NCBI RefSeq assembly: GCF_048771995.1
Contig: NC_133030.1
Location: 11,672,001-11,736,000, forward strand
Direction: 5' to 3'
Length of the DNA stretch: 64,000 bases
DNA from: Taeniopygia guttata
Lineage: Eukaryota; Chordata; Aves; Passeriformes; Estrildidae
Shown here: piece after piece, positions 38,219 to 61,367 of the stretch
How positions within the stretch are numbered: position 1 is the first letter of the stretch
Layout of the letters: the number at the start of each line of letters is the position of its first letter
Notes under the pieces: model-generated
Seen by the model: only the letters and a program-made list of their open reading frames with translations
Told to the model about the DNA's origin: nothing
Database searches by the model: none
Made by a program: the position numbers and the translations under genes

Positions 38219-39588
<1,370 letters not shown>

Positions 39589-39616
39589 TCAACGTCCCCT
39601 TTTTCCCTTCCCCAGG

Positions 39617-40777
39617 ATGGGAATCCATGGCTTGGCCAAGCTTATCGCCGACGTGGCTCCCGGGGCTATCCGGGAGAACGACATCAAGGCCTACTTTGGC
39701 CGGAAAGTGGCCATCGACGCCTCCATGAGCATCTACCAGTTCCTGATTGCCGTGCGGCAGGGAGCCGATGTGCTGCAGAACGAGGATGGGGAGACCACCA
39801 GCCACCTGATGGGAATGTTCTACCGCACCATCCGCATGGTGGAGAATGGCATCAAGCCGGTGTACGTGTTCGACGGGAAGCCCCCGCAGCTGAAATCCGG
39901 GGAGCTGGCCAAGCGCACGGAGCGTCGGGCCGAGGCGGAGAAACACCTGCAGGAAGCACAGGAGGCTGGGGAGGAGGAGAACATCGAGAAGTACAGCAAG
40001 AGGCTGGTCAAGGTGACCCCGCAGCACACGCAGGAGTGCAAGAAGCTGCTGACGCTGATGGGAATTCCCTATGTGGAGGCACCTGGAGAGGCAGAGGCCA
40101 GCTGTGCCGCCTTGGTGAAGGCTGGGAAGGTGTACGCCGCCGCCACGGAGGACATGGATTGCCTCACCTTCGGTAGCCCCGTGCTGATGCGGCACCTCAC
40201 AGCCAGTGAGACCAAGAAGCTGCCCATCCAGGAGTTCCACCTGAACCGGATTCTGCAGGATCTGCAGCTGACCTGGGAGCAGTTTGTGGACCTGTGCATC
40301 CTGCTGGGCTGCGACTACTGCGCCAGCATCCGCGGCATCGGGCCGAAGCGCGCCGTGGAGCTCATCCGGGAGCACAAATCCATCGAGAGGATCGTGCAGC
40401 AGCTCGACACCAAGAAGTACCCCCTGCCCGAGAACTGGCTGCACAGGGAGGCCCAGAAGCTCTTCCTGGAGCCCGACGTGATCGATCCCGATGCCGTGGA
40501 GTTGAAGTGGAGCGAGCCAGACGAGGAGCAGCTGGTGCAGTTTATGTGTGGGGAGAAGCAGTTCAATGAGGAGCGCATCCGCAACGGCGTCAGGAGGCTG
40601 AGCAAGAGCCGCCAGGGAAGCACCCAGGGCCGGCTCGACGACTTCTTCAAGGTCACCGGATCCATCACCTCGGCCAAGCGCAAGGAGCCGGAGCCCAAGG
40701 GAGGGGCCAAGAAGAAAGCCAAGACCAACTCCAAGCCCAATGGCACCACCGCCACAAAGACTAAAAAGGCAAAATAA
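39617..40777 (+). CDS. FEN1: Flap endonuclease 1
   Basis: FEN1 is a structure-specific 5' nuclease that removes 5' flaps in Okazaki-fragment maturation and long-patch base excision repair, acting with PCNA in nucleus and mitochondria. The uninterrupted coding exon gives 386 residues (human 380). The start is set by [10 protein letters not shown], directly after an acceptor (CCCCAG at 39,610-39,615), so the frame that is open upstream is intron. Two-metal active-site acidic residues are all present: D34 (VAIDAS), D86 (YVFDGK), E158/E160 (PGEAEAS), D179/D181 (TEDMDC) and D233 (GCDYC). The XPG N and I regions and the helix-hairpin-helix ([13 protein letters not shown]) follow. The PIP box QGRLDDFF that binds PCNA is intact. 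The Lys-rich tail is slightly longer than in human and ends KTKKAK. The intronless coding region is usual for this gene. Confidence 0.98.
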
Positions 40778-42416: not shown

Positions 42417-43622
42417 TTATCCAGCACAAAGAAGACTACGGAGTGTGCCAGCTGCTGCCACAAGCTGCATCCTGAGCCATGCCAGCCATCTCCTGAGAGT
42501 TTCCTTGTGCTCCCGTTTCCGCTGGAGCCTCTTGTCCAGCGCTGCTCGGAGGGTTTTCTCCCGTGGCACTGCTGCAGTGTCCTGCCAGCCGTGCATTGGG
42601 CACCAGCGGCTCAGGGACACTTGCTGCTGGGAATGCTTTGCTGGAATGGCTTGGGCTCCCAGTTGTATTTCCAGGCTTTTCCTGGCCGTGGGTATCTGGT
42701 GAGTTCTGTGGATAGCCATGGCTCCGAGGCAGCAGGGAGACCTGTCCATGTGGGCTCCTCCATCTGGGGTCCAGCAGATCTCATGGAGGCTCTGGCAGGG
42801 ATGGAGACCTTTGCTATAAATATCCCAGGTGTGGAGATCTTCCTTAGCCTCGTCCTTCACAGGCAGCTCCAGGGAGCATCCCTGACATGGGAGCTGTTGT
42901 CTTTGCTGCCGGAGCCTCTTGTCCAGCAGTGTGCGGAGAGTCTGCCCAGATGGCTCTGCCACAGGATCCTGGGAGCTGTGGGTTGGGCACCGGCGGCTCC
43001 AGGACACTTCCACTTGCTTCTTGGCAGGAACAGGCCAGGTTCCAGTTGGAACACAACACAGGTCACAGAGGGTCTGGCTGGGAATGAAGGAGCCTTTCCG
43101 AGGGATGGACATTCTTGGAAGGGTGGAGGATCTCGACCAGCGCTGGGCTCTGCGGAGGACTGAGCCTTTTCCAGCGGCAGATGTTTTCCAACGGATCAGG
43201 GGTCTTGTTGGGCGCTGGCACCTGGAGGGCTGGGGACTCCTGGAGGAGCTGGAGGAGGCACAGCAGGGCAGCTGGCCTTGTTCCAGCAGCTGCTCCAGGT
43301 CCTCCCACAACAGCTGCCACATCTCCGAGTCCCGCGGGAAGGACACCTCGGGCCACAGCGGCGTCACCATGTCCTGCAGCTCCCGGGCCGCCGCCGCACA
43401 GGGGGTGCAGCAGGGCCCGCAGCCGCAGGGGATGTACAGGGGCCTCTCCGGGGCAGCCGGGCCATGGCGAGGGGTCTCCTCGGCCGGGGGGGAACCGGGA
43501 GCCCCCGGAGCCGCTCGGCAGCGCCACGTCCTGAGGCATTTCCGTGCCTTCCAAACACGGGTGGCCAGCAGGACGGCCGTACTGGCCACCAGCAGGACAA
43601 GCGGGGGGAGCAGGAAACTCAT
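42417..43622 (-). CDS. Unrecognised Cys-rich single-pass membrane protein with internal repeat
   Basis: I do not recognise this gene. On the minus strand an uninterrupted 401-residue frame starts at an ATG in good context (GCCATGA). It begins MSFLLPPLVLLVASTAVLLA, a clear signal-anchor or transmembrane helix followed by a basic stretch (RVWKARK). A Pro/Ala segment follows, then a cysteine cluster (CGCGPCCTPC) at about residues 66-75, a leucine/glutamate helix (MWQLLWEDLEQLLEQG), and a Ser-rich stretch. A block of about 45 residues occurs twice, built round SRRCPTHSSQD...TLRTLLDKRL and SRWCPMHGWQD...TLRAALDKRL. The frame continues open upstream of the ATG, with a possible acceptor (TCTCCACAG) near 43,681, so a 5' non-coding exon is likely. 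No identity is claimed. A loose resemblance to the N-terminal-anchor layout of SPATA31-type testis proteins is speculation. Confidence 0.55.
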   Translation of the reverse strand: MSFLLPPLVLLVASTAVLLATRVWKARKCLRTWRCRAAPGAPGSPPAEETPRHGPAAPERPLYIPCGCGPCCTPCAAAARELQDMVTPLWPEVSFPRDSEMWQLLWEDLEQLLEQGQLPCCASSSSSRSPQPSRCQRPTRPLIRWKTSAAGKGSVLRRAQRWSRSSTLPRMSIPRKGSFIPSQTLCDLCCVPTGTWPVPAKKQVEVSWSRRCPTHSSQDPVAEPSGQTLRTLLDKRLRQQRQQLPCQGCSLELPVKDEAKEDLHTWDIYSKGLHPCQSLHEICWTPDGGAHMDRSPCCLGAMAIHRTHQIPTARKSLEIQLGAQAIPAKHSQQQVSLSRWCPMHGWQDTAAVPREKTLRAALDKRLQRKREHKETLRRWLAWLRMQLVAAAGTLRSLLCAG

Positions 43623-43937
43623 GGCTTCATCCGTGTTCCATCGTGGCCATGCTGAGAGCCGGAGGGTGGTGTCAGTGTCCTGTGGAGACACTGTGCTGAT
43701 GTCACAGAGCTGCGGGTGCGACACCTGTGTGACATCACAGCCCCGCCTCACCCCAGAGCTCATGGCCCAGGGCACCCCAGTGCTGCCAGGGGCAAGGGGC
43801 TCCATGTGGGCACTGGTGGCCCTCTGGAGCAGAGCACATGGAAAGATTCTCAGGCAAGTAGGACACAATGATGAGGAGAAGGATGATGGTCTCACCTCCT
43901 GGCTGACAGAGCTGGGGACATGGATTCTCCCATGCGA

Positions 43938-44100
43938 CACTGCAAAGTGCTGGAGGAGGAAAAGCTCTTCTCGGTAACCACCAAATCACCTCTGTGTTTT
44001 TCACAGCATTCCCATCCTGAATCCAAACCCAGGGCTGTGCCAGCCACTGTGAGGAAAATGAACCCTGTGAATCCTACTAAAAGCAAACAACCAAACCACT
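43938..44100 (+). repeat. Dispersed repeat fragment, copy A (LTR-like fossil)
   Basis: This stretch aligns with the reverse complement of 47,770-47,900 (shared words CTGCAAAGTGCT, GAGGAGG, ACCACCAAA, ATCCTGAATCCAAACCCAG) and with 42,255-42,340. It appears to have inserted next to a decayed CBLIF exon. It is probably an old, broken LTR fragment; the exact family is unresolved. Confidence 0.55.
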
Positions 44101-47479: not shown

Positions 47480-47770
47480 AAGAAAAATGTTGGAGAAGAT
47501 CATACTGGATCTGCTGGGAAAACAATTCAAGGACAGTGCCTGCGTCAGGCACAGGCAGCTCAGGATAACTGAGAGAAATTCCTGTCTAACTGGTTTCTTA
47601 TCCTGCTGCCATAAGGTCTCCCAGCTCAGAGGTGATGGGAAGGGAAAGCCTGTTCATTTTGGGGATTGTAGTAGGAGTTTTGTCTCTGTCCTTCACAGAA
47701 TCCTTCTGGAGGTGTCCAGCTGTGAGATGAGCAGGGACAAGGTGTGCTGGCTGCTGTGCTGGATTTAACC
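47480..47770. other. Unassigned, repeat-like stretch
   Basis: This non-coding stretch of interspersed-repeat character lies next to dispersed repeat copy B. Family not determined; no gene seen. Confidence 0.3.
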
Positions 47771-47900
47771 GGGATAGGGAACTTTTTCTTTGCTGGATTT
47801 GGATTCAGAATGGTAATGGTGCAGATAACACCCGGGAGGTTTGGTGGCTGCTGAGTGGGGTTTGCCCTCCTCAAGCACTTTGCAGCGTCCTGTGGGACAA
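47770..47900 (-). repeat. Dispersed repeat fragment, copy B (LTR-like fossil)
   Basis: The reverse complement matches 43,938-44,100 over most of its length. It is an old, broken fragment; a degraded LTR is the best guess. Confidence 0.5.
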
Positions 47901-48289
47901 TTCAGGACAAGGCACCATCCTCGGGGATGTTCCCTGTGCCTTCTGTAGGCAAGGAGGAAAAAGGGAGTCTGGAGGGTGATGGTGTCACTTGGCACAGTCC
48001 ATTGTGGTGGAGACCAGGTGAGTGAGGGATGAGGGGGCCCGAGTGAGATCCCTCCAAAAAAGGGAGGTTACAGCCGCAAAATGCCTGAAAATTCATGAGG
48101 GGTTTGTGTGTAAAATACTGAAAACTGCAAATATTCCCATTTTTGTATATTCTGGGAAATTTTAATGCATTTAAAAACCGATTCCGAAATAAAACCTTGT
48201 GTCTGCTGTGTTATAGACAGGATATACACTGTAAGGAATTCTGATTACGGAGCTAGAGGGTTTGAAAATACAAATATATTTCTCTATCC

Positions 48290-48460
48290 GGGGCCAAGGC
48301 CGGGATAAAGTTTCCCGGAAAGAAACGCCGGAGCGCAAGCGCGGAGCCGGGAGCGGCAATGGTGGAGCCCGGGGAGCAGCGGCGCCGGGCTCGGAGGTGA
48401 GCGGGGAACGGGGAGAACCCCGAGCGGGGAACGGGGGCCTCGCGGGTCGGTGCCTCAGCA
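48290..48460 (+). promoter_or_regulatory. CpG-rich block with NRF1-like site, possible promoter/first exon
   Basis: An abrupt switch from AT-rich to CpG-dense sequence occurs here. An NRF1-like GCGCAAGCGC lies at 48,333-48,342, followed by an ATG at 48,359 and a splice donor (GGAG/GTGAGC) at 48,397. This looks like a promoter and first exon on the plus strand. The transcript is not identified. Confidence 0.45.
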
Positions 48461-50326
48461 CGGGGATCGGTGTCCCGGCACAGGGATGGCTGTCCCGGCA
48501 CAGGGATCGGTGTCCCGGCACAGGGATCGGTGTCCCGGCACAGGGATCGCTGTCCCGGCACAGGGATCGGTGTCCCGGCACAGGGATCGGTGTCCCGGCA
48601 CAGGGATGGCTGTCCCGGCACAGGGATCGGTGTCCCGGCACAGGGATCGGTGTCCCGGCACAGGGATGGGTGTCCCGGCACAGGGATGGCTGTCCCGGCA
48701 CAGGGATCGCTGTACCGGCACAGGGATGGCTGTCCCGGCACAGGGATCGCTGTCCCCTCCCGGGACACGGAGCGGGAAGGCGGCAGCAGCGGGAGCTGCG
48801 GGCAGGGGACACCGGAGCCGCCTCGGCCGAGCGGGGCCCGGGGCGTCGCTCTGGGGCGGATTCCGGAGGGGCCAAAGTGAACATTTTGGGGCAGAATCTG
48901 AATTAATGTGCAGGGGAGAGAATGCACAGCTTGGGGTAAGGATGAGGCGGTCGGTGCTCTCCGGAGGGACCGGCTCGGGCTGGCTCTGTGTTACTGTGAT
49001 TAATTTGCTTTATGGAACGAGACACCTGAGGCTGCCGCGGGAATGCAGGGCTGGAGCCGGGAAGGAAACCCGGGCTGTGCGGGAATGGCAGGGGCGGTCA
49101 GGCGGGGCTCCCGTCGGTCACTGGAGTCACCGCAGAGAAGGCGACGTGTAAGGATGTGTAGCGGGATATAAGGGACATGTTGATTGTAGGATTACCGATA
49201 AGGATACAGAACGGATCTATAGAACGACCGTATAACGAGATGTGTATTTTAAAAGCCCGTCGTCATCCTTCTCCCAGCCCCGCTGTGTTTTCAGGATCCT
49301 GGGGGAAGAGCCGGGTCTGGACGAGGCTCCCGGGCACAGGGGGGAGTTCTTGGGGTCCTGTGCGGGGCCCGGATTTGGACTCGATGCTGCCCGTGGGTCC
49401 GTTCCGGCTCGGAACTGCTGCGATCCTGTGCCGTGGCGGGTGAGATCCGGGGCATCAGCGGGGCTCTGCCCGCGGTGTCCGCGGCCCCGCCGGGTCCGGG
49501 CGGGTTAAAGCGGGAGCGGCCCGGGACAGCGGGAGCGGCCGGGACCGGCCCGGGACAGCGGGAGCGGCCGGGACCGACCCGGGACAGCGGGAGCGGCCCG
49601 GGACCGGCCCGGGACAGCGGGAGCGGCCGGTGCTGCCGCCCCGTGGGGAGCGCCCGGCACTGCAGCCCGGCACGGCGCGGGGCCGGCGTGGAGCGGCGTC
49701 CCGGGAATGCTGAGAGATCCCGGGAATGCTGAGAGATCCCGGGAATGCTGGGGCGTCCCGGGAATGCTGGGGCGTCCCGGGAATGCTGAGAGATCCTGGG
49801 AATGCTGGGGCGTCCCGGGAATGCTGAGAGATCCCGAGAATGCTGAGAGATCCCGGGAATGCTGAGAGATCCCGGGAATGCTGGGGCATCGCTGGGAATG
49901 CTGAGAGATCCCGGGAATGCTGAGAGATCCTGGGAATGCTGGGGCATCGCTGGGAATGCTGAGAGATCCCGGGAATGCTGAGAGATCCTGGGAATATTGG
50001 AGCATCGCGGGGAATGCTGAGGCGTCCCCTGCCTGGCGCACTCGGCAGCGCATCCCTGGTGCGATGCAGAAAAAGAAAAGTCCTGGGTTAGTGGGAGGAT
50101 GTTTCTGGAATGGAGCCGGGAGAGGTGCTGCTCATGCCATGGAATCACGGGCTGCTTTGGCTTGGAAGGGAGCACAGGATCATTGACACTCTCTGGTCTG
50201 ATTGCACAGCAAAGAACTTCCCAAACTGCCTCCTCAGCCTCATGGACAGCAGGAGTGTCTTCCATAGCTCCTGTTCAGGAATGGCAGTGGCTGTGGGGAG
50301 CTCTGGCGGGAGCAGCTGCAGACCAG
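48359..50326 (+). CDS. Candidate three-exon novel transcript (speculative)
   Basis: Three stretches with consensus borders, 48359-48396, 49295-49439 and 50210-50326, join in one frame of exactly 100 codons with no stop. They start MVEPGEQRRRAR and end at a clean CAG/GTAAGA donor. Exon 2 has a good pyrimidine-rich acceptor (TGTGTTTTCAG). No family is recognised. Exon 2 is GC-rich, where open frames are common, and exon 3 lies beside a CR1 scrap, so this may be a non-coding RNA or chance. Later exons were not found. Confidence 0.2.
48458..48758. repeat. 20-bp minisatellite, about 15 units
   Basis: An exact 20-bp period with unit CACAGGGATCGGTGTCCCGG. Units differ at two or three positions (ATCGG, ATCGC, ATGGC, ATGGG), and the variants are interleaved. 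Long ORFs on both strands here are products of the repeat (20 is not a multiple of 3, so every frame reads the unit). Confidence 0.95.
49505..49650. repeat. GC-rich tandem repeat (GGGAGCGGCC / GGGACCGGCCC)
   Basis: Short imperfect tandem units of GGGACAGCGGGAGCGGCC with inserted GGGACCGGCCC words. About five units. Confidence 0.8.
49699..50029. repeat. 19-bp minisatellite, about 17 units
   Basis: The unit is GGGAATGCTGAGAGATCCC, with a second variant GGGAATGCTGGGGCGTCCC. The two variants alternate irregularly. The array ends near 50,029. Confidence 0.93.
50140..50190 (-). mobile_element. CR1 LINE scrap
   Basis: Minus-orientation terminal words (GGAATCACGGGCTGCTTTGG, TTGGAAGGGA). Very short. 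Confidence 0.5.
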
Positions 50327-51429
50327 GTAAGAACAGAAATGGGATCATTCCAGCTGCTGCTGGAGGCGGTTTTCCCTTTTCAGGATGTTCCTCTGATGGG
50401 GGTTTGCACAGCAGTGTTCTAGGGCATGTGTGGGGGTAATGCCGGGAATTTTGAAACAGGTGAGAAGCAGAGGGGAAAAAATGTGAAGCTGATCTGTTTC
50501 TAGTAATTCCAAACTTATCCCACAGCACCATCCTAGGGGAAACCTGGGTAAGGGACAGAGATGGAGAGGAACAAGTGTTCTAAACCCCCCGGATTTCTGA
50601 CAGAGCAAACCTTCCCGTGATCCCAGCTGATGTCTCTGAGAAACTGTGGGGTCCTAAGGATTTCCAGGAAAGCAAAACAAGGACAGAGATGAGGGAATAG
50701 GTTTCCAATTAATAATGATTTGGTGGACATGGGACTGATTCTTGTATGTTTGATGCTCCCTGTTTTATTACTGGAATAATTTTAAAGTGATTCCTTTAAT
50801 AAATCATATAAATTTGAGAGGAAACAATGGAAAATTAATGCAGGGAGAGATTGTGGACTCATCATGGAATGGTTTGGGATGGAAGCCTCATCTCTGAGCC
50901 TGTCCTGGGCTGGCTCCTGTCCTTGGACCCCTGGAAGGACATGGAAATGGTGGAGATGTGCAGGGAATGCCGGTTGGTTTTCCCTGCCTCTGGCAATCTG
51001 GCCATTAGGAAGACTAATTGACCTCTCCCAGCAGGGAAACATTTAAACATGAGGTGCCAAAAAGAACTGGAGCTTCTGCACAATGAAACCTGCAGGAATC
51101 CAACTTAAAATCCTCCTGGATTGTCACCAGTCCAACTTCCATGGACTGGTCTCTGTGGCCAGGAGTGTCCAGTCCTGCTAGAAATGCACTGGACCAGGAT
51201 GTCATTTTCACTTTATGCAGGTAAAGAACCTCTGGGTGACCCCCAGTGACTGGAAGGACCAGACTGGGCTCCCAGGGCACTAATTCCAGGTGTTCTGGTT
51301 TTGGGAATAGCACAGGAGCAGCAGACTGCCTTCCTTAGTCCACAAATCCCCAGGATGGGCCACAGAGAAAATAACAGGAATGTGGAAATCCCCTGCTCAG
51401 GGAGTTTGTGGTGCTCTGGATTACATTTT

Positions 51430-51660
51430 GGATTTACAATATTAAAGGGGGGGAGGTGTAAGGTTTATTTCTCTTTCTCCTGTTCGTTGTTGTTCTCAGT
51501 GTTCTTGTTGCTCTCACTGTCATTATGTGTTGTCATTAATATTAAATGATTGTATTTGACTGGTTTCCATTATTAAAGTGTTGTGAGCTGGATTTTTGTC
51601 TCTGGTCTCTTGCCCATCCCACAAGGGGAGGGGGTGAGGGAGCTGCTGCTGGAGCCCAGC
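51430..51660 (+). repeat. Possible LTR-like fossil fragment
   Basis: A run with ATTAAA/ATTAAAG words, TTTTTGTCTCTGGTCTCTTG, and CCCACAAGGGGAGGGGGTGAG resembles the 3' part of old avian retroviral LTRs. It is broken and partial; family unassigned. Confidence 0.3.
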
Positions 51661-52031
51661 TGGGTCCGCCCATGGCCCGGGGCACTTGTGGGGGCTCTGA
51701 ACTCAATGGACTGGAGCAGTTTTGGGCTCACAAAGAGACACCCAGTGCTGCGTTTGGGGTGCTAAATCGGGCTCCGAGCTGAAAAACAGAGACTAAAGTG
51801 AGCATTTTGGAGCAGGCTCGTAGGGCCAGACCTGGGGCTCAGGAACAGGGACTAAACGCTGTGTTTGCAGGGCTTGAGGAGAGGAGCAAGTGCGGAGAGT
51901 TTGGGCTCGGCAAGAAAAGCCGAAGTGCAGCGTTTTGTTGGGCTGACGGAAAGCCCGGAGGCCCGGCCCAGGTGAGAGGGGCGGGTCCGGGAGCGATGGT
52001 CCCGCCGCCAGCCCGGGCCGGGCGGGGCCGG

Positions 52032-52290
52032 AGCTCTGGGGCGGTCCCGGGGCTCTGGGGCGGTCCCAGGGCGGTCCCGGGGCTCTGGGGCGGTCCCGGG
52101 GCTCTGGGGCGGTCCCGGGGCTCTGGGGCGGGCCCGGGGCTCTGGGGCGGTCCCGGGGCTCTGGGGCGGTCCCGGGGCTCTGGGGCGGTCCCGGGGCTCT
52201 GAGGCGGTCCCGGGGCTCTGGGGCGGGCCCGGGGCTCTGGGGCGGTCCCGGGGCTCTGGGGCGGTCTCGGGGCTCTGGGGCGGGCCCGGT
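52032..52290. repeat. 20-bp minisatellite, about 13 units
   Basis: The unit is GGGGCTCTGGGGCGGTCCCG, nearly homogeneous. It adjoins the outer end of the left arm of the large inverted repeat. Confidence 0.93.
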
Positions 52291-52337
52291 TCAGGTGCGC
52301 GGGGCCCCAGTGCGGCTGCGCGGGGCGGGGCCGAGGT

Positions 52338-52345
52338 GATTTAAG
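52338..52345 (+). promoter_or_regulatory. TATA-like box, left arm
   Basis: GATTTAAG lies about 10-20 bases after a GC box (GCGGGGCGGGGC) and about 25 bases before CCGCCGCCATTTGC. The same arrangement recurs on the minus strand at 54,664-54,671. Confidence 0.45.
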
Positions 52346-52439
52346 GCCCGGAAAGCGGCACCGCCGCCATTTGCTCTCTCAGCGGCTGACTCGGCTGCTA
52401 CTCGGCCGGGCTCTCCCGGCGTGGCTCAGGAGAGCCTCG

Positions 52440-52850
52440 TCTCGTCCTCTTTCTTCTCCCTCTTTCTCCTACTCTTATCCTCCTCCTTCTCCCCCCGCTT
52501 CTCCCCTCTTTTCTACCCCTCCAGCTTCTTTCTCTCTCCCCCCATTCCCCCTCTCCCTCCCAGCCCCCCTCCGCCCTCTCTCCTCTCCCCAGCCTCCCCT
52601 GGCCTCTCTCCCTGTTCCCCTGCACATCCCGGACCCCCCCTCGTCCTTTCGGCTGTCTCCTACCCCCTCCCCAGCCCGCCTCCCCTCTCTTGCCCCTGTA
52701 CCCCTCCTCTGTCCATCATCCCTCTCCCCACCCGGCCTTTCCCTTTCCTCCTCCTTCTCCCCCAAACCCCCCAACCCCTCTCCGTACCCTCCCAATCCCT
52801 CCCTGACCCCTCCTCTGTCCCCCCATTCCTCTTTCCCCCGCCGCCGCGGG
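52440..52850. repeat. Pyrimidine-rich (CTTCCC) low-complexity tract
   Basis: About 400 bases are almost entirely C and T on the plus strand. The counterpart at 53,990-54,590 is A/G-rich, as expected for the other arm of the inverted repeat. Long proline/serine ORFs here follow from composition. Confidence 0.85.
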
Positions 52851-52866
52851 GCTGGGGGCGCCGGAG

Positions 52867-52872
52867 AATAAA
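52867..52872 (+). terminator. AATAAA in left arm
   Basis: A poly(A) signal hexamer lies about 530 bases after the left-arm TATA-like box, within AATAAAGCCCAGAGGGCCGG. Confidence 0.4.
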
Positions 52873-53948
52873 GCCCAGAGGGCCGGAGCCCGGCGCCCCC
52901 CGCTGTCCCCGGAGCCCCACCGGGGCCGGGCCCGCTCGGCGGGTCCCCCGGGGCGGTTCTCAAGAGCCGCCGGACGCCGCCGGGGCTGCGGCTTTGCCCC
53001 CATCGCAGTGGGGGCTCCCCGGCGGCGTCGGGGCTGGGGGTCAGGGGGGAACCCCTCCTGACGAGGGGGTCCCAGTGTGGGTTCGGGTGGGATGGGCCCC
53101 CTCCTCCGGAGGGGGTCCTGGGGGTGGGGAGGTTTAGGGAGGGAGGGGTCCTGGGGTGGGGGTGGGTTAGGGGGGGCGGGGCCCCCTCCGGGGGAGGGGG
53201 TCCCGGGGAGGGGGTCGGGGTGGGCCCCCTCCGGGGGGGGGGGCCCGGGGGAGGGGGGTGGGGCGGAGGGGGGACTTCCCCCCTCCAGTCCCCGCCCCCT
53301 CCCCCGGACCCTTCCTCCGGACGGGGCTCACCCGGGCCCCCTCCCCGGGACCCCCTCCTCCGGACCGGGGCCCGGGGGGGGGGGGAGGGAGGGGGGTGGG
53401 TGGGGTGGGGGGGAAGCAGAGGGGGTCACGTCACTCTGCAGCGTGAACACACACAGATCCCCGCACAAACAAACGGCCCCTCCCCTTCTGCCCCCCACCC
53501 CACCCGCCCCCCCTCCCCCCCCCCGGGCCCCGGTCCGGAGGAGGGGGTCCCGCGGAGGGGGCCCGGGTGAGCCCCGTCCGGAGGAGGGGTCCGGGGGAGG
53601 GGGCGGGGACTGGAGGGGGGAAAATCCCCCCTCCGCCCCACCCCCCTCCCCCGGGCCCCCCCCTCCGGAGGGGGCCCACCCCGACCCCCTCCCCGGGACC
53701 CCCTCCTCCGGAGGGGGCCCTGCCCACCCCAACCCACCGCCCCCCCCCCCCCGACCCCCAGCCCCCCAAACCCCCTCCCCCGGGGACCCCCAACCCCCCT
53801 CCCGGGGACCCCCAGTGTGATGTAGGGAAAGCCGGAGCCCCGGCGGTGTCGGGCGGTGCATTGGAACGGTGTGGGGGGACCCGCCGAGCGGGCCCGGCCC
53901 CGGTGGGGCTCCGGGGACAGCGGGGGGCGCCGCTCCGGCCCTCTGGGC

Positions 53949-53954
53949 TTTATT
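53949..53954 (-). terminator. AATAAA in right arm (minus strand)
   Basis: TTTATT on the plus strand is the mirror partner of 52,867-52,872, about 715 bases downstream of the right-arm TATA-like box in the minus direction. Confidence 0.4.
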
Positions 53955-54663
53955 CTGCGGCGCCCCGAGCCCCGCGGCTGCGGGGGAAAGAAGGAGAGGA
54001 TGGAGGGCGGGAATAGGGGGGCAGAGGGGATGGACAGCGGGAGCCAAGGACGGAGGGCAGGTGGGGGGGGTCGGGGTGTACCGGGCAGTAGGGAGAGGGG
54101 ACAGGGGGAGGTGGGCTGGGAAGGAAGGAAGGGTAGAGAGGATGGAGTAGGAGGAATGAAGGCAGATTGAGGGGAAGGTGGGGCAAAACGCAGCACGGAA
54201 AGGGGGCAGGGGGAGCTGGACTCTGGGGTGGGGAAGGAAGGGCAGAGGAAGTAGAGAGAGGATTGAAGGCAGGTAGGAAAAAACTGGTGGGGGGAAGGAG
54301 AGCAGGGAGAGGGGCCAGGTGGGAGCCGGGTGGGGGAAGAAACGTGGAAGGACGAGGAGAAAGGTGGAGGGGTATGGCAGGGTTGGGGTGTGTAGGGGGA
54401 GAGGAAGAGGGGGAGTAGGGGGGGACCGGGCCGGGCCGGGGGGGGAAGGAGGGGAGGGCTAGGGGGGAGAGGGAGGGGGGGGGGTAGGGGGGGGGGAGGG
54501 TGTAGGGGGTGGGGGAGGGGAGAAAGGGAGGGGATAGAGGAGAGGTATAGAGAAAGAGAAGCAGAGAAGAGATAAAAAGGAAGAGAAATAAAGAGCCCGA
54601 CCCGGCGGCAACCTCTCCCACCGATCGCTGAGGGGCAAATGGCTCCTGAGGCGATTCCCGGCG

Positions 54664-54671
54664 CTTAAATC
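54664..54671 (-). promoter_or_regulatory. TATA-like box, right arm
   Basis: CTTAAATC on the plus strand reads GATTTAAG on the minus strand. It is followed (minus direction) by GCCATTTGCC and preceded by a GC box (CCCCGCCCCGCGCAGCCGC on plus). Confidence 0.45.
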
Positions 54672-54711
54672 CCTGCAGCCCCGCCCCGCGCAGCCGCTCT
54701 GGCGCTCTGGG

Positions 54712-54903
54712 GCCCTTCACACCTGAGCCGGGCCCGCCCCTCACACCTGAGCCGGGCCCGCCCTTCACACCTGAGCCCGCCTCGCCCTTCACACCTGAGC
54801 CCGCCCCGCCCTTCACACCTGAGCCGGGCCCGCCCTTCACACCTGAGCCGGCCCCGCCCTTCACACCTGAGCCCGCCCCGCCCCGCCCCGCCCCGCCCCG
54901 CCC
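54712..54903. repeat. 24-bp minisatellite, 7 units, then CCCCG run
   Basis: The unit is CCCTTCACACCTGAGCCGGGCCCG with GGGCC/CCGCC variants. It ends in a (CCCCG)n tract at about 54,876-54,903. It adjoins the outer end of the right arm of the inverted repeat. Confidence 0.93.
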
Positions 54904-54929
54904 GTAAATCCCGGCGGATCCGCGCCCGC

Positions 54930-55726
54930 TCCGCTTTGGGCGGGGGATGCTCATCCCGGGATGCGGCGGGACCGGCGCTCGGAGCGCTGTGCGGGCCCTG
55001 GGCCGGGGCTGCTCCCGGTGCTGTGCGGAGCTCGCGGCGCTGAGGTGGGGCCGGGAACGGGACCCGGGCCGGGGAATTCGGTCCGGGTCCTGCCGGTGTC
55101 TGCTGGGGGTCCCGGGGCGAGTGGGCGGTGGGTCCTGGAGCCGCAAGACCGGGGCGGGATTGGGGCAGGGATCGGGACAGGAATCGCCGCGGGGAGGCGG
55201 AGCCGCTCCGGGACGGGCGCGGACCGAGCCCGGCGCTGCCGCTCCCGCTCGGACCGCGGCCGGTGCGGGGCTGCGCTCCCGCTGGGGCTCCGGGCAGCGG
55301 GGAGCCGGGGCTGTGCCGGGGCCGGGCCCGGCAGGAGGCGGCGCTTTCCCGGAGCCGGCGCTGGATCGCGGCTGGAAGCGGGCGGGGCGCGGGGACCGCC
55401 CGGGCCGGCCCCGGGACCGCTCAGGGGCTGCTGGTCCCTCAGCGCCCTCCGGGAGGGGCGCCCTCTGGCGGACACAGAGCGGCGCTGCGAGTGCGGCGGC
55501 CCCCGGTGCGCGCTCCCGCCGGGCGGCGGCCCCCGGTGCGCGCTCCCGCCGGGCGGCGGCCCCCGGTGCGCGCTCCCGCCGGGCGGCGGCCCCCGGTGCG
55601 CGCTCCCGCCGGGCGGCGGCCCCCGGTGCGCGCTCCCGCCGGGCGGCGGCCCCCGGTGCGCGCTCCCGCCTGCGGAACGCCCGCCGGGGCTCGGTTCTGC
55701 TCGGGCCGCTCATCCGACATCTGCCA
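54930..55726 (+). promoter_or_regulatory. CpG island with splice donor, possible first exon
   Basis: A CpG-dense block of about 800 bases ends at a strong plus-strand donor (ATCTGCCAG/GTGAGG at 55,727). Frames are long but composition-driven, and no known protein is recognised. It may be the promoter of an unidentified plus-strand transcript. Confidence 0.4.
55493..55670. repeat. 30-bp minisatellite, 6 units
   Basis: The unit is GGCGGCCCCCGGTGCGCGCT + CCCGCCGGGC, with six copies almost without change. As 30 is a multiple of 3, all frames stay open, explaining the repetitive ORFs on both strands. Confidence 0.95.
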
Positions 55727-55833
55727 GGTGAGGCCTGATGCTCTCCTTCCTCCCCCCACCTTCCCTGTGGGTCGCACTCTGCAATGCAAAACAACTCCGT
55801 TTAAAAAGCCAGTGAAAGTTGTTTAATTTTTAT

Positions 55834-55839
55834 TTCCAG
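55834..55839 (-). terminator. Possible minus-strand polyadenylation signal
   Basis: TTTATT on the plus strand (AATAAA on minus) in an AT-rich patch could end a minus-strand transcript from the 56-59 kb region. Position approximate; weak evidence. Confidence 0.25.
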
Positions 55840-56693
55840 GTCTTCAGATATCCTGAGTAGGAAGGAACACGCAAGGCGCACCAAGTTGAACCCTTGTGTT
55901 AAAGGCTCATCTGGGCACTGAACCCACAACCTGGGCATTTTCAGCACCCTGCTCCAACCAAGCCAGTGTCCGGTCATGGCAATGGCCTGCCTGGGATGGG
56001 AATGCCAAGTGCCAGCAAGGGAATTCCTATGCCAATGCAGCTCCTTCTTTTATGCTGATGCTCCTTTACACACCAGCCCCTGGAATGTCCACAGGGCAGA
56101 GCTCCATGGCCAGCATCTGACTGTGGAGTAACACAGGTGAACAGTTGAGTGACAGCACAAAACTCTTCCAATAACCCTGATTTCCTGTCCTTTCCAGCAT
56201 TTCCTTGATGGCTGCAAAGGTGCTTGTGCCATGTCCCTTTCCAGGGAGAGATGAGCAAGCCAAGTCCTGAGGGTTCCCTTGGTCCATGGCCAAAGTTCTT
56301 CTGGAGAGTGCCGGGGCTGGTCCCGCCTGCAGAGGGGCATTTCCTGCAGGTGAGTGTTCACAGCCCAAAACCTCGGTGGGGCTGAGGCCGGGGCTGCTTC
56401 TCAGGCCCAGAGCTGCACGGAGCCCTCGGGGACTCCTGCTCCCTGCCAGGAACGTTCCTCGGTGTTCCCGGTGTGTCCCAGCGGGGCGGGAACGCGGGGC
56501 GGGAGGAGGCCGAGCCCCAGGAGGGGAAGCAGCCCCTCTTGTCCTTGGCACCTGCAGGGCAGGAGCTGTGCCTCAGTGTCCTGCCCGTGGCAGGCAGCGT
56601 GCCAAACGCAGCCCGGGGATGGGTGCTGGGGTGCCCGGGCAAGGGGGTAGAATCCACTGAATTCCAGGAACTCTGTCAGGTGCCCCCAGGGAC

Positions 56694-56772
56694 ATTGGTA
56701 GAATGAACATTTTGAGGTAAAAATGAGGCTATTGGTAGTAGGCAGATGGAAAACCTTGAGGGGAAACATTTG
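56694..56772 (-). repeat. Inverted single copy of the 57.1-58.6 kb array unit
   Basis: GAATGAACATTTTGAGGTAA followed by AAATGAGG and TGGTAGTAGGCAG matches the reverse complement of the array unit (TTACCTCAAAATATTCATTC, CCTCATTTTT). It stands about 350 bases before the array. Confidence 0.7.
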
Positions 56773-57117
56773 GCTGGGGGATGAGGGTTATAAATAACCA
56801 ATTCTATGAAATAGGAACTTGTCCTTGTCCACTGAGCTTCCTTGGAACCTCTGCTGCTTCCTGACACAGCTGGGATCAGATAGGCAGCTCTGCATGGGAA
56901 TACCCACACTCCATGAGGCCATGTGAGGTTATTCCAGTAGGAATTCAGCAGGGAATACAGGGCTATCAGTACAATTCCTCTAAACAGCAAAGCTGATACT
57001 GAACCCCAAATCTGGGCACCACACAGGGAACAATCTTTGTGCTGCCCTGCCAGCCAAAGCCCTGGGCTGGGAAATTTCAGCAGCCAAATTTCTTTTACAA
57101 GAAAGCATTCTTTCTCT

Positions 57118-58635
57118 ACTCTGGAGATTACCACAAGGTTTACCCTAAACATGTTCCCTACCTGTATTGCCCCATTTCCACCTTAATATTTCCATTCTTT
57201 ACCCTGTGGATGCTTTCAGTTTCTCCCCCCAGTAATTTCCCTACTTGTCCATAACTGATTACCATGAAGTGCATCCTCTCTGCTACAGATCACCTGAGAT
57301 TTTACCCCTGAAATTTTCTCTACCTCTCCACCACTGAGTAGCTCATTTTTACCTCAAAATATTAATTTTCTACCATGGAGATTCTCTCAAGTTTTATCCC
57401 CAGATTTACCCACCTGCCCACAGTGATTCCCTCAGTTTACCTCAGGATGCTCCTGCTCTTTCCTAGAGATAATCTCACATTTTACCCCCCAGTTTTACCT
57501 ACCTGTCCAATACTGATTATCTCCTTTTTACCACAAAATATCCATTCTTTCCTCTACAGATTAACTCAGATTTTATTACCAAAATGTCCATTTTGTCCCC
57601 TCTTTGCCAACTAGATTTTAAAACCAAAACCACACAGGTTATGCCTCTTATCCCCAAAATGTTCATTCTGTCCCCTACGAATTATGTCACATTTTTCCCA
57701 AAACCACTTATTCCTACATAATTACCTCAGGGTTACTGATTACCTAATTTCTACCTCAATATGTTCATTCTCTGCCCTACAGATCTTCCCAAGTTTCACC
57801 CCCAAAATTTCCTTGCCTACACCCAGTGATTGTTTCAGTTTGTCAGTGTTCACACTCTCCCTTGAGATTATCTCAAATTTTACCGGCAAAATCTTCCTTA
57901 CCTGTCCACAATTTATTGCCTTGTTTTTACCCAAAAATATTATTTCTGAACCCTTAGATTATGTCAGGTTTTGCCCCCCAAAATTCCCCTACCTGTCCAC
58001 TACTGATTCCCTCATTTTTCCTTTAAGTATTACTTTCTACCTTATAGTTTTTGTCAAGTTTTACCCCAAAATTTTCAATGTGTACCTAGTTTTTACTTCA
58101 AAATGTTCACTCTACAGATTATTCTAATTTTTAACCAAAAGCTTCCCCATCTGCCCATAACTGATTCCCTCATGTTACCTCAGTATGTTCATACTCTCCT
58201 CTAGAGATTAGCTCAGATTTAGCCCCCAAATTTGCCCTACATGCTCAGTACTCATCACCTCATTTTTCCCTCAAAGTGTTCATTTACTCTTGAGATTTTG
58301 TCAAGTTTTGCCTCCAAAATTTTCCTTGTTTACTACTAAGTACCTCATTTTTACTCCAATATATTAATTCTGTCCCTTACAGATTACATAGAGTTTTACC
58401 CCCAAAATTTTCCTTCCTGTACAATATTAACTCTTTTCTACTCCACAAATCGGCATTCTCTCCCCCAAACATCACCTCAGCTTTTCCCTCAGAAATGCCA
58501 CCTTGCTCCCCTCGACATCCCCTCACATTTTCCTACACAAACAGTTCAGTGTCCCCTCCCAACTGCCCCAGGTTTTCAGCTAAAAATGTCACCTCTGTCC
58601 CCTCTGAGTTATCCCAGGTTTTCCCAGATAGGAGC
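57118..58635. repeat. Degenerate tandem array, about 90-bp unit, about 17 copies
   Basis: The recurring pattern is ATTATCTCAAATTTTACCCC, AAAATTTTCCCTACCTGTCC, A(C/T)TACTGATT.CCTCATTTTT, ACCTCAAAATATTCATTCTC, TCCTCTACAG. Spacing between successive ATTATCTCA-type words is mostly 80-95 bases. Copies differ by many substitutions and small indels, so the array is old. ORFs here are repeat products. I know no named family for it. Confidence 0.9.
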
Positions 58636-58927
58636 TGCAAGGAATTCAGGCAGGGCAAATGACAGCAGGGAACAGCTGTAAATTCAAAGGCAGAAAGAGA
58701 TCTACCAGCAAAGGGGGAAGGTTTCAGAAAACATTTCTGCAACTAATAACTAATAATTATTCATTCCCCAGTGAGAAGAACACAAACTCACAACCATTAA
58801 GGCCTGGCAGTTCCCTGCAGTGAGAGCTCAGCACACATCCAGAGGCAATTCCAGCACCTGAAAGGAAGAAGAAAAAGGTGATTTCTTCTCTTTTGAAATT
58901 ATTTCAAGTTCTCAGACCCAAACCAAC

Positions 58928-59056
58928 CTTGCCCTTGATTTTGGCTGGGTGAATCCTGAGCAGTGGGCACAGGTCCTGTCATTCCTGCTGATGGGAGTGA
59001 TGCTTTCTGGGGAAATCAGCTGATTTCCAAAGTTCACTGCCTGCCCCATGCCTGAT
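58928..59056 (-). other. Candidate exon of an unidentified minus-strand gene
   Basis: This 129-base segment lies between a good acceptor (TTTTCTCCTGTGCAG) and a donor (CAAG/GTTGGT). It is open in one frame reading GMGQAVNFGNQLISPESITP then ISRNDRTCAHCSGFTQPKSR. A possible next exon starts at 58,857 after TTCCTTTCAG. The sequence reads like protein but I do not recognise it. CxxC pairs (CAHC, and CWNC across the junction) are suggestive only. Confidence 0.25.
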
Positions 59057-59059
59057 CTG

Positions 59060-61367
59060 CACAGGAGAAAACCTCTTCCATGAAGGGATTTTGCTCCATC
59101 TAATCCCATCTGCCCAGGCTGTTCCATGTGGATGTTGCCAGGCTGGGGCAGCACGGGCAGATGCAGCTCTCAGCTCTCTCTGCTCCAAACACAGCTCTGG
59201 GCTCCTCTGCAAACTCCTCTGCTGTGAGGTTTTCTCCAGGAGAACTCAAGGAATGGCTCAATGGCAGATTAAGTTATCAGAGAGGGAAGTAAAAGATAAA
59301 TATTCCTGTAAGAGCCTTTGGGATCTGCTGGGCTGAATTGGGAAGGGCCCCTTCGTTCCCTGCAGTGCAAATGCACAACAACCTCCAACACAAAGCCAGC
59401 ACTGTCAGGTGGGGTCTGAAAGCACCACTTGGACAAACCTCATTGTCATTCTTCCTTTCAGGGACTGTTTCATCAACCTCTGAAGCTGACAAGCCCAAAA
59501 GCTCTGGAGTCTGTCTGCTCTGGAGCACAAGGATACTCCCAGGGATGAGGCACATTCCCAGCAAACGCTCCCAACACGGCACAGAGGCACCACTGGAGCT
59601 CGTGTTGGGGTTGGGAAGGGCTGCCAGGAGGACACAGCCCCCAGCTGGGGTGGCAGGGGCAGTGACAGCAGCAAATTCCACAGGCTGATGGCACAAGAGA
59701 GGGACAAAGGCCAGCAATGGCCACGGAGCTGCAGGTTTCATTGTGCTCCCTGCGCTGCCACATCCCGGCAGGAAATCTCCAGGGGGGACAGAAACTCCCT
59801 GGGTGCACAAAGTGCAGCCTCTGTGCCCCTGATCCTGCTGGAACTCAGCTGTGGGGCCAGCCCCCAGGGTAAACACTGCCCTGCCTGCAGCAGCCTCAGG
59901 CACTGCCCCATTCTCAGCTCCCCCTGCCCCGGGGCTGCCACCACATTCCTGACCAGGAGCCAAAGGCCACACCTGCACTGGCACAGGCTCATCCCCCAGC
60001 CAGCTCCTCTCGTGGCTCCAAATCCTCCCAACCCTCCCCATCCGTGCTTTGGCCAGTGCCTGCCCCGAGGCTGTCACCCAGCCCTGCAGCATCACACCTG
60101 CAATCCAGGAAGCTTTAATGCTGGAGCCTGCTGTGCTTCAGTGTTATTTTCAGGAAGTAACAAACCCACCACAGTGCAAGGGGAAAAAAAGTGATTTAAG
60201 GAATGTTTTACTCAAGCACTCCTCACTTTACCCCTCGCAACCACCCCAGCATGAAACAGACATTCAGGAATTAGTGTTCAGTAGCTGCCTTTGGAATTTT
60301 AAGGGATACCAACAAAGCCTTGACAGATATGTGGGGAAGTCCACAGCACGTTTTCCTTCCCCATCTGTGTCAGCATCCAGCACAGTTCCCTGTTCCTCTT
60401 TGGTCCCCAGGAGCTGCAAGAGGAATGTCAGTCGTTGGCTTCGGTCGTTAGTCCAGGAGATAATTAATTCGAAGAGAATTAATCTGGTCAGTGGCAGAAG
60501 ATCATCACAGCGAAATAGCATCTTTGCCACAGGATATTTCCACCCTGTTCTCAGATCAAGAACTACTTCCCAAACTCAGTGATTCCATCTAAACCACAGC
60601 AGCACAGTTTGGAAGGACAGAAGTTTTCAGCCTTGTGTGAAGAAAGACAGAAACATCACTGGGAGAAAATCCTGAAGTTTAAAATCCTATTCCTCACTTC
60701 TTTGACTAATGAACCTCTTAACATCCAGTATGGACTGTGCAGAGAAGTTCCTTGGTCCCACCTGGAAACTGATCTCCCCAAAACATCCACAAAAGCCATC
60801 AAACAGTTATTAAAACTGATTCCATTAATTACTATGGAAAAGACAATACAAATAAACTGGAAAAAAATTTGGCTCAAGGTTTCCTCAGGAATGAATTGGG
60901 AGCTCACCAGCAAGGATTTCTGATAGGCAAAGAGTGTGATATAAAATATATATGTGCATACATATATATAATAAATAAGTATATATATATTTATACACAC
61001 ATACATAAAAATATATATAATACATATTTATATCACAAAGTATCTCACGTATATGTGCCAAATATATATAAAAACCACAAATGTTTTTATATCACAAACT
61101 CTACCTACAAACCCCCACATTTCCCCTTTTTTTTCAGGAATGTAATATTTTTAGGGATCCTAAAATCAAACACACGCAGTGCTCTGCAAAGGAAATCACT
61201 ATTTTATCCCATTAATTCCAAGATGTTTTCCTGGATGTGCTGCTGGGTGTTCTCCTGTAAGTCTTGTGGCTTATCCATGAAGTGTACTTGTAATTGTCAG
61301 GATCATGAAATCCATTTGGAATTTTACTGTCTCTGCAGTGGGATGAACTTCTCCAAAATTATTTCTC
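59060..61367. other. No supported gene; includes RMDN3 3' UTR at its right end
   Basis: Several medium ORFs exist here but none shows a recognisable domain or consistent splice borders. An AT-rich, TATATA-type simple-repeat patch lies at about 60,945-61,070. The right part should be RMDN3 3' UTR; no minus-strand AATAAA could be fixed. Confidence 0.4.
60945..61070. repeat. AT-rich TATA-type simple repeat
   Basis: Alternating TATATA/CATACA tracts with imperfections. Confidence 0.85.

Follow-up and report, generated by a model that had tools for sequence, protein, structure and literature searches.

Sex-chromosome and ampliconic palindromes are large inverted repeats whose arms are kept alike by gene conversion. 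The family described here resembles them in having inverted arms, a small spacer, inner parts that appear homogenised and a core that becomes inverted; unlike those palindromes, however, 18 of its 34 pairs are autosomal, most pairs have arms of 1.1 kb and old promoters of two types (A and B), and no protein gene was found in the arms. Long inverted-repeat loci that give rise to hairpin RNAs and endo-siRNAs are similar in their kilobase-scale inverted repeat and promoter-like ends, but the pairs described here have two inward promoters, with an AATAAA before the axis in both arms. Taken singly, each promoter is like a TATA-initiator promoter of RNA polymerase II, with a GC box, a TATA-like sequence near -30, a YCA initiator and fixed spacing, although here such promoters occur as facing pairs ahead of pyrimidine tracts with few ATGs. 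Lastly, retroviral LTRs with a poly(A) hairpin in R also have a TATA box and then an AATAAA in a predicted stem-loop, whereas the arms described here are inverted and have neither an internal region nor fixed ends. We did not find such a family described in the literature searched, the coverage of which was incomplete.

The window, by which we mean the whole stretch of 64,000 nucleotides of zebra finch (Taeniopygia guttata) DNA that was analysed, holds one such pair. A sequence-only reading had proposed an inverted repeat of 52290-53425 against 53476-54740, and alignment of the arms bears out two inverted copies around a spacer of about 50 nt. That reading had also described the arms as reverse complements, which holds for their inverted arrangement but not over their full length, since they match in islands only, near the axis (276 aligned positions at 92%), around the AATAAA (218 at 86%) and at the promoter (79 at 81%). 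In the tracts between the islands, the likeness of the two arms is mainly compositional. Both arms have the order reported there when read inward (GC box, TATA-like sequence, initiator, pyrimidine tract, AATAAA), and the reported spacing of 530-715 bases corresponds to TATA-to-AATAAA distances that we measured at 527 nt (left) and 715 nt (right). The AATAAAs of the two arms are 1087 nt apart, each on its own side before the axis. The features of the pair and its surroundings are as follows:

49511..52289, no strand: left flank, matching that of the C7:10.96 Mb copy at 94% identity
52020..52289, no strand: GC-box minisatellite ahead of the left promoter, with a 19-bp unit repeated about 14.6 times
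52290..53425, + strand: left arm, promoter type B (arm alignment, promoter typing)
52322..52331, + strand: GC box GGGGCGGGGC of the left core promoter
52340..52344, + strand: TATA-like TTTAA of the left arm, 29 nt before the A of CATTTG
52367..52374, + strand: initiator-like CCATTTGC of the left arm
52426..52833, + strand: pyrimidine-rich tract of the left arm, 85% Y
52854..52901, + strand: predicted hairpin with the AATAAA (52867-52872) of the left arm (predicted fold)
53153..53405, no strand: GC-rich inner part of the left arm, with a nested inverted repeat
53416..53439, no strand: axis element GCAGAGGGGGTCACGTCACTCTGC, containing the CRE-like TCACGTCA (53426-53433)
53476..54740, - strand: right arm, promoter type A (arm alignment, promoter typing)
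53949..53954, - strand: AATAAA of the right arm, inside a predicted hairpin
54635..54642, - strand: initiator-like CCATTTGC of the right arm
54665..54669, - strand: TATA-like TTTAA of the right arm
54712..54883, no strand: minisatellite ahead of the right promoter, with a 24-bp unit repeated 7.2 times
54900..59968, no strand: right flank, common with C7:12.20 Mb at 92%

The units of the 24-bp minisatellite contain TCACACCTGAGC, the complement of a CAGGTGTGA box, which we take to resemble T-box sites. A tRNA-Pro called by ARAGORN at 52231-52309 overlaps the GC-rich minisatellite and is probably false. No Rfam model matched the 64 kb window at its gathering score, and the phage collection gave no match.

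When the genome was searched with one arm, as the sequence-only reading had suggested, the left arm matched many more places (40 of 107 candidates were scored). Combined with searches for the AATAAA pattern, this yielded 34 convergent (tail-to-tail) pairs in the zebra finch's own genome: six on C7, five on C2, one on C4, six on C5, nine on C40 and seven on C41. The last two contigs are probably Z and W, judging by their sizes (82.2 and 33.8 Mb) and the contig order. With at most one mismatch, the 23-nt AATAAA pattern had 115 hits in the genome (100 of them listed), and the reversed pattern, used as a control on the same genome, had none. The exact A form had 64 hits; 57 lie in convergent pairs, seven are without a partner hit, and no pair among the 64 is in divergent order. 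Five C5 pairs and one C2 pair were completed from searches other than that for the exact form. Recurrence of the pattern in 34 convergent pairs is far beyond chance.

Twenty-one of the 34 loci were read, comprising all 18 autosomal pairs and three of the 16 on C40 and C41 (two and one, respectively); the remaining 13 were counted from paired pattern hits alone. The inverted repeat is present at every locus read, always in tail-to-tail order, and the distance between AATAAAs across pairs is 0.9-2.2 kb. Near the contig starts, pairs occur every 0.15-0.31 Mb on C40 and every 0.16-0.33 Mb on C41. The three C40/C41 copies read have 96-97% identity between arms, and L010 (C7:6.73 Mb) is a palindrome across the 8.4 kb fetched, with 97% between arms; L010 also has, at either end, tandem repeats of about 100 bp. 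Hits that lack a partner are situated close to the contig ends on C1, C2, C3 and C5, at other positions on C1, C4 and C7, and also on C10, C27, C30, C31, C33-C36 and C39. Five of these places were read: L026, on C3, is a full arm with a promoter, and the core promoter is absent beside the AATAAA at L027, L028, L032 and L033.

Arm anatomy was compared across 43 arms at 22 loci (the 18 autosomal pairs, the single C3 arm and the three C40/C41 pairs). The facing promoter-like modules that the sequence-only reading had seen in the window are present in all 36 arms of the 18 autosomal loci, as are AATAAAGCC and the canonical poly(A) signal AATAAA. Within a search window that permitted seven spacings, the first T of TTTAA lies 29 nt from the A of CATTTG in 31 of the 43 arms and 30 nt from it in the other 12. 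The initiator is CCATTTG in 42 arms and GCATTTG in one (L009 left), and every one of the 43 has a TATA-like sequence about 30 nt before a YCA-type initiator at fixed spacing, as in TATA-initiator promoters. Upstream, 42 of 43 arms have CAGGTGTG or CAGGTGCG within 200 nt and 40 of 43 have GGGGCGG between -65 and -25; a simple pattern for CTCF-like sites found none in the 43. Downstream of the initiator, all 43 arms have a pyrimidine tract of 224-680 nt that is 80-88% pyrimidine.

By our reading of the folds, about 37 of 47 sites have the AATAAA within a predicted stem that is rich in GC; seven C5 arms and L026-L028 have a different predicted fold, and the L011 right arm has one pair fewer. The predicted stem pairs through a change from G-C to C-G between types, which involves an indel on the 3' side, and one of its pairs varies among C-G, U-G and U-A. 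In none of the 43 arms is there a TGTGT, GTGTG or TTTTT 10-80 nt after the AATAAA; given this lack of a downstream GU/U-rich motif, the AATAAA may not be a working poly(A) site, and read-through is conceivable.

No ATG occurs between initiator and AATAAA in 32 of the 43 arms, versus 9.0 expected from shuffled bodies, a scarcity that is only suggestive because the arms are related and the shuffle ignores the placement of the few purines. We rejected coding arm bodies on these counts, though a few arms with an ATG have a frame of up to 298 codons that runs past the AATAAA; for one arm frame and one upstream frame, there was no homologous protein among the candidates sharing most words. An intron is likewise not claimed: although a 3'-splice-like GCAG precedes the AATAAA in 40 of the 43 arms, a GTRAG within the first 150 nt is present in just 12 of them.

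Identity along the arm was compared for 11 arms, which we chose to represent the groups. Two islands stand out, the core promoter (-90 to +14) at 0.77 and the AATAAA region at 0.85; elsewhere, the upstream segments have 0.54 and 0.58, the leader 0.56, the 3' tract 0.62 and the part following the AATAAA 0.73, and shuffled controls gave 0.52-0.59. Tracts of different loci align hardly above the shuffled level. Anchor letters are conserved by construction at 12 of 104 and nine of 80 positions of the two islands, which without them have estimated identities of about 0.74 (core promoter) and 0.83 (AATAAA). This pattern suggests selection on the positions at which transcription would start and end, with copy-to-copy exchange a real alternative.

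Promoter likeness within a locus is only 64-75% at 12 of the 18 autosomal loci, and it is the two promoters of these loci that we term types A and B. Each promoter of these 12 loci matches an arm at another locus better than it matches its own partner; the AATAAA regions of A/B pairs are 85-100% alike within a locus. The other six autosomal loci (L010 and L020-L024) and the three C40/C41 loci read have like promoters (93-100%). Leaving aside the C7 10.9-13.1 Mb group (the window and L011-L013), the loci read have within-locus identities of 0.94-1.00 for their AATAAA regions. That group does not follow within-locus homogenisation: its AATAAA regions are 85-87% alike within loci and up to 97-100% alike across loci. 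Around the axis there are nested GC-rich inverted repeats and the axis element, whose CRE-like TCACGTCA the sequence-only reading had picked out in the window; the element around this motif is perfect in 13 of 18 autosomal loci and 16 of the 21 read. Between the close relatives L015 and L017, the element is turned round with respect to the outer arms, as is expected if arms recombine. The arms appear to exchange sequence.

Flanks are common among copies for kilobases, with breakpoints that differ between copies. Blocks at 56772-57089 and 58710-59012 are common with places on C1, C2, C4, C5, C7, C40 and C41. Beyond 59968, the window no longer follows the C7:12.20 and C7:13.05 Mb copies, which continue together; with a right end that differs among these three C7 copies, the family has the look of segmental duplication, with no fixed ends. 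The flanks point to spread of the family by segmental duplication. The flanks of the window contain further repeats: minisatellites at 48447-48756 (20 bp x 15.5) and 49699-50021 (58 bp x 5.6) on the left, and on the right a perfect 30-bp tandem repeat at 55493-55670 (5.9 copies, 100%) and a degenerate repeat of about 90 bp at 57100-58600, which is strongly strand-asymmetric (GC skew of -0.46 at 57001-58000) and has relatives in L012 and L024.

Elsewhere in the window, XPG domains at 39539-40777 belong to a gene that we take to be FEN1, and a frame at 42417-43940 on the - strand (507 aa) has 16 relatives among the best 7993 candidates scored. The 12 named relatives are all passerine and none has a known function; a Vidua match has 87% identity over 24% of the query. 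At L027 (C27) and L028 (C10), a relative of this frame stands head to head, about 1 kb away, with a related tract that has an AATAAA. A neighbouring frame in L027 has a weak protein-kinase match, below the curated cut-off.

A 191-bp satellite is known in finches. Tandem satellite DNA of this unit length, with a match of 92-94%, was found on C40 at 0.30 (L036), 0.79 (L034) and 1.27 Mb (L035), two of these three samples lying between pairs and one before the first pair; sampling between pairs covers C40 alone. It is absent from the 4.7-5.5 kb read at two C40 pairs and from the 5.0 kb read on C41. L027 and L028 contain stretches 76-80% similar to it. A "191 bp" mentioned in PMC2966331 is an unrelated allele.

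Several other explanations bear on these observations. The pairs could be neutral palindromic segmental duplications in which the islands seem conserved because gene conversion homogenises the copies; the apparent exchange between arms, the duplicated flanks and the 96-97% identity between arms at L010 and the three C40/C41 copies read are all consistent with this. However, homogenisation has gone least far in the outer promoters at 12 of 18 loci (0.64-0.75), yet TATA, initiator and spacing are kept, leader and upstream DNA beside these conserved promoters are near the shuffled level, and the single C3 arm keeps the same core. We consider neutral duplication unlikely, while taking it seriously. 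Much harder to sustain is the suggestion of the sequence-only reading that the arms are an inverted pair of LTR fossils, or derive from some other mobile element. A TATA box followed by an AATAAA in a hairpin does recall the R region of an LTR, but there is no internal coding region between arms only about 50 nt apart, flank homology continues for kilobases, and the ends are not fixed, since the two C7 relatives of the window stay alike beyond 59968, where the window departs from them. Palindromes are also a known class of assembly artefact; that a fold-back could account for 34 separate loci with group-specific sequence, and with promoters diverged to 64-75% between arms at 12 of 18, is barely credible, in agreement with the sequence-only reading.

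The remaining alternatives concern what the arms might produce, and we consider both improbable. The arms might be the antisense or upstream halves of bidirectional promoters of flanking genes, with short CU-rich RNAs as by-products stopped early by the AATAAA. The head-to-head arrangement at L027 and L028 argues for this; nonetheless, neither locus has the TATA-initiator core next to the tract, the gene at 42417-43940 in the window is separated from the arm by 8.3 kb, a related block at 47610-47904 lies 4.4 kb away and is inverted relative to C27, and the one A-side frame searched, in a C40 copy, has no homologous protein among the candidates scored. Alternatively, the pairs might be sources of hairpin or double-stranded RNA, read-through transcripts crossing the axis, folding back over about 1 kb and feeding small-RNA or heterochromatin pathways, notably near the C40 satellite. 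The tail-to-tail order at 21 of 21 loci read, the nested GC-rich inverted repeats by the axis, the satellite at the three C40 places sampled and the missing downstream GU/U-rich motif point in this direction. The sequence-only reading had gone further, expecting overlapping transcripts and dsRNA whenever both arms were active, but this is not implied by the positions of the AATAAAs, both of which lie before the axis, 0.9-2.2 kb apart. Since the arms are inverted copies that are both read inward, their RNAs would be of the same sense, so that normally ended transcripts would neither overlap nor pair, and overlap would need read-through.

We favour the explanation that the pairs are conserved non-coding RNA polymerase II units arranged convergently, in which A and B units were joined, spread by segmental duplication and are under selection for their start and end signals; we put its probability at roughly 0.55. 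Each arm would be a small transcription unit, with upstream DNA rich in GC boxes and CAGGTG and a TATA-like box 29-30 nt before a CATTTG initiator. Its putative product would be a CU-rich RNA of 0.3-0.8 kb, probably unspliced, that ends before the axis and has its AAUAAA in a predicted hairpin in most arms. Two anciently different units, A and B, may have been joined tail to tail around the CRE-like axis element, after which the joined pair would have reached several macrochromosomes as well as C40 and C41 (probably Z and W), on C40 amid 191-bp satellite DNA. Exchange between arms would homogenise the 3' halves and flip the core, and selection would maintain the start and end signals and the pyrimidine bias rather than the RNA sequence. 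In that case, selection would probably be preserving transcription itself, or an RNA defined by composition, which might for example be bound by proteins that prefer CU-rich RNA. The anatomy, the copy number, the two conserved islands, the A/B pairing and the shared flanks were observed directly, whereas transcription of the units, maintenance of the islands by selection instead of exchange, and any function are inferences.

A bolder version of this proposal, which we regard as speculative and rather improbable, is that the pairs constitute a specialised system of facing non-coding promoters in which selection acts on transcription through the palindrome and not on RNA sequence. Such a system would have spread over the macrochromosomes and would recur at intervals of 0.15-0.33 Mb by the starts of two large contigs, probably Z and W, of which the one sampled, C40, has 191-bp satellite DNA around its pairs; there, the chromatin state of the germ line would be set by read-through dsRNA or by transcription as such.

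If the units are active, the zebra finch genome would contain some 34 near-copies of a facing-promoter device whose start and end signals persist although the RNA sequence between them changes. These copies would be natural replicates with which to ask if convergent transcription across a palindrome serves a purpose, and those amid satellite on a probable sex chromosome could be compared with those in gene-rich autosomal DNA. Even if inert, the pairs would be clear vertebrate palindromes with arms that exchange sequence but have distinct outer promoters.
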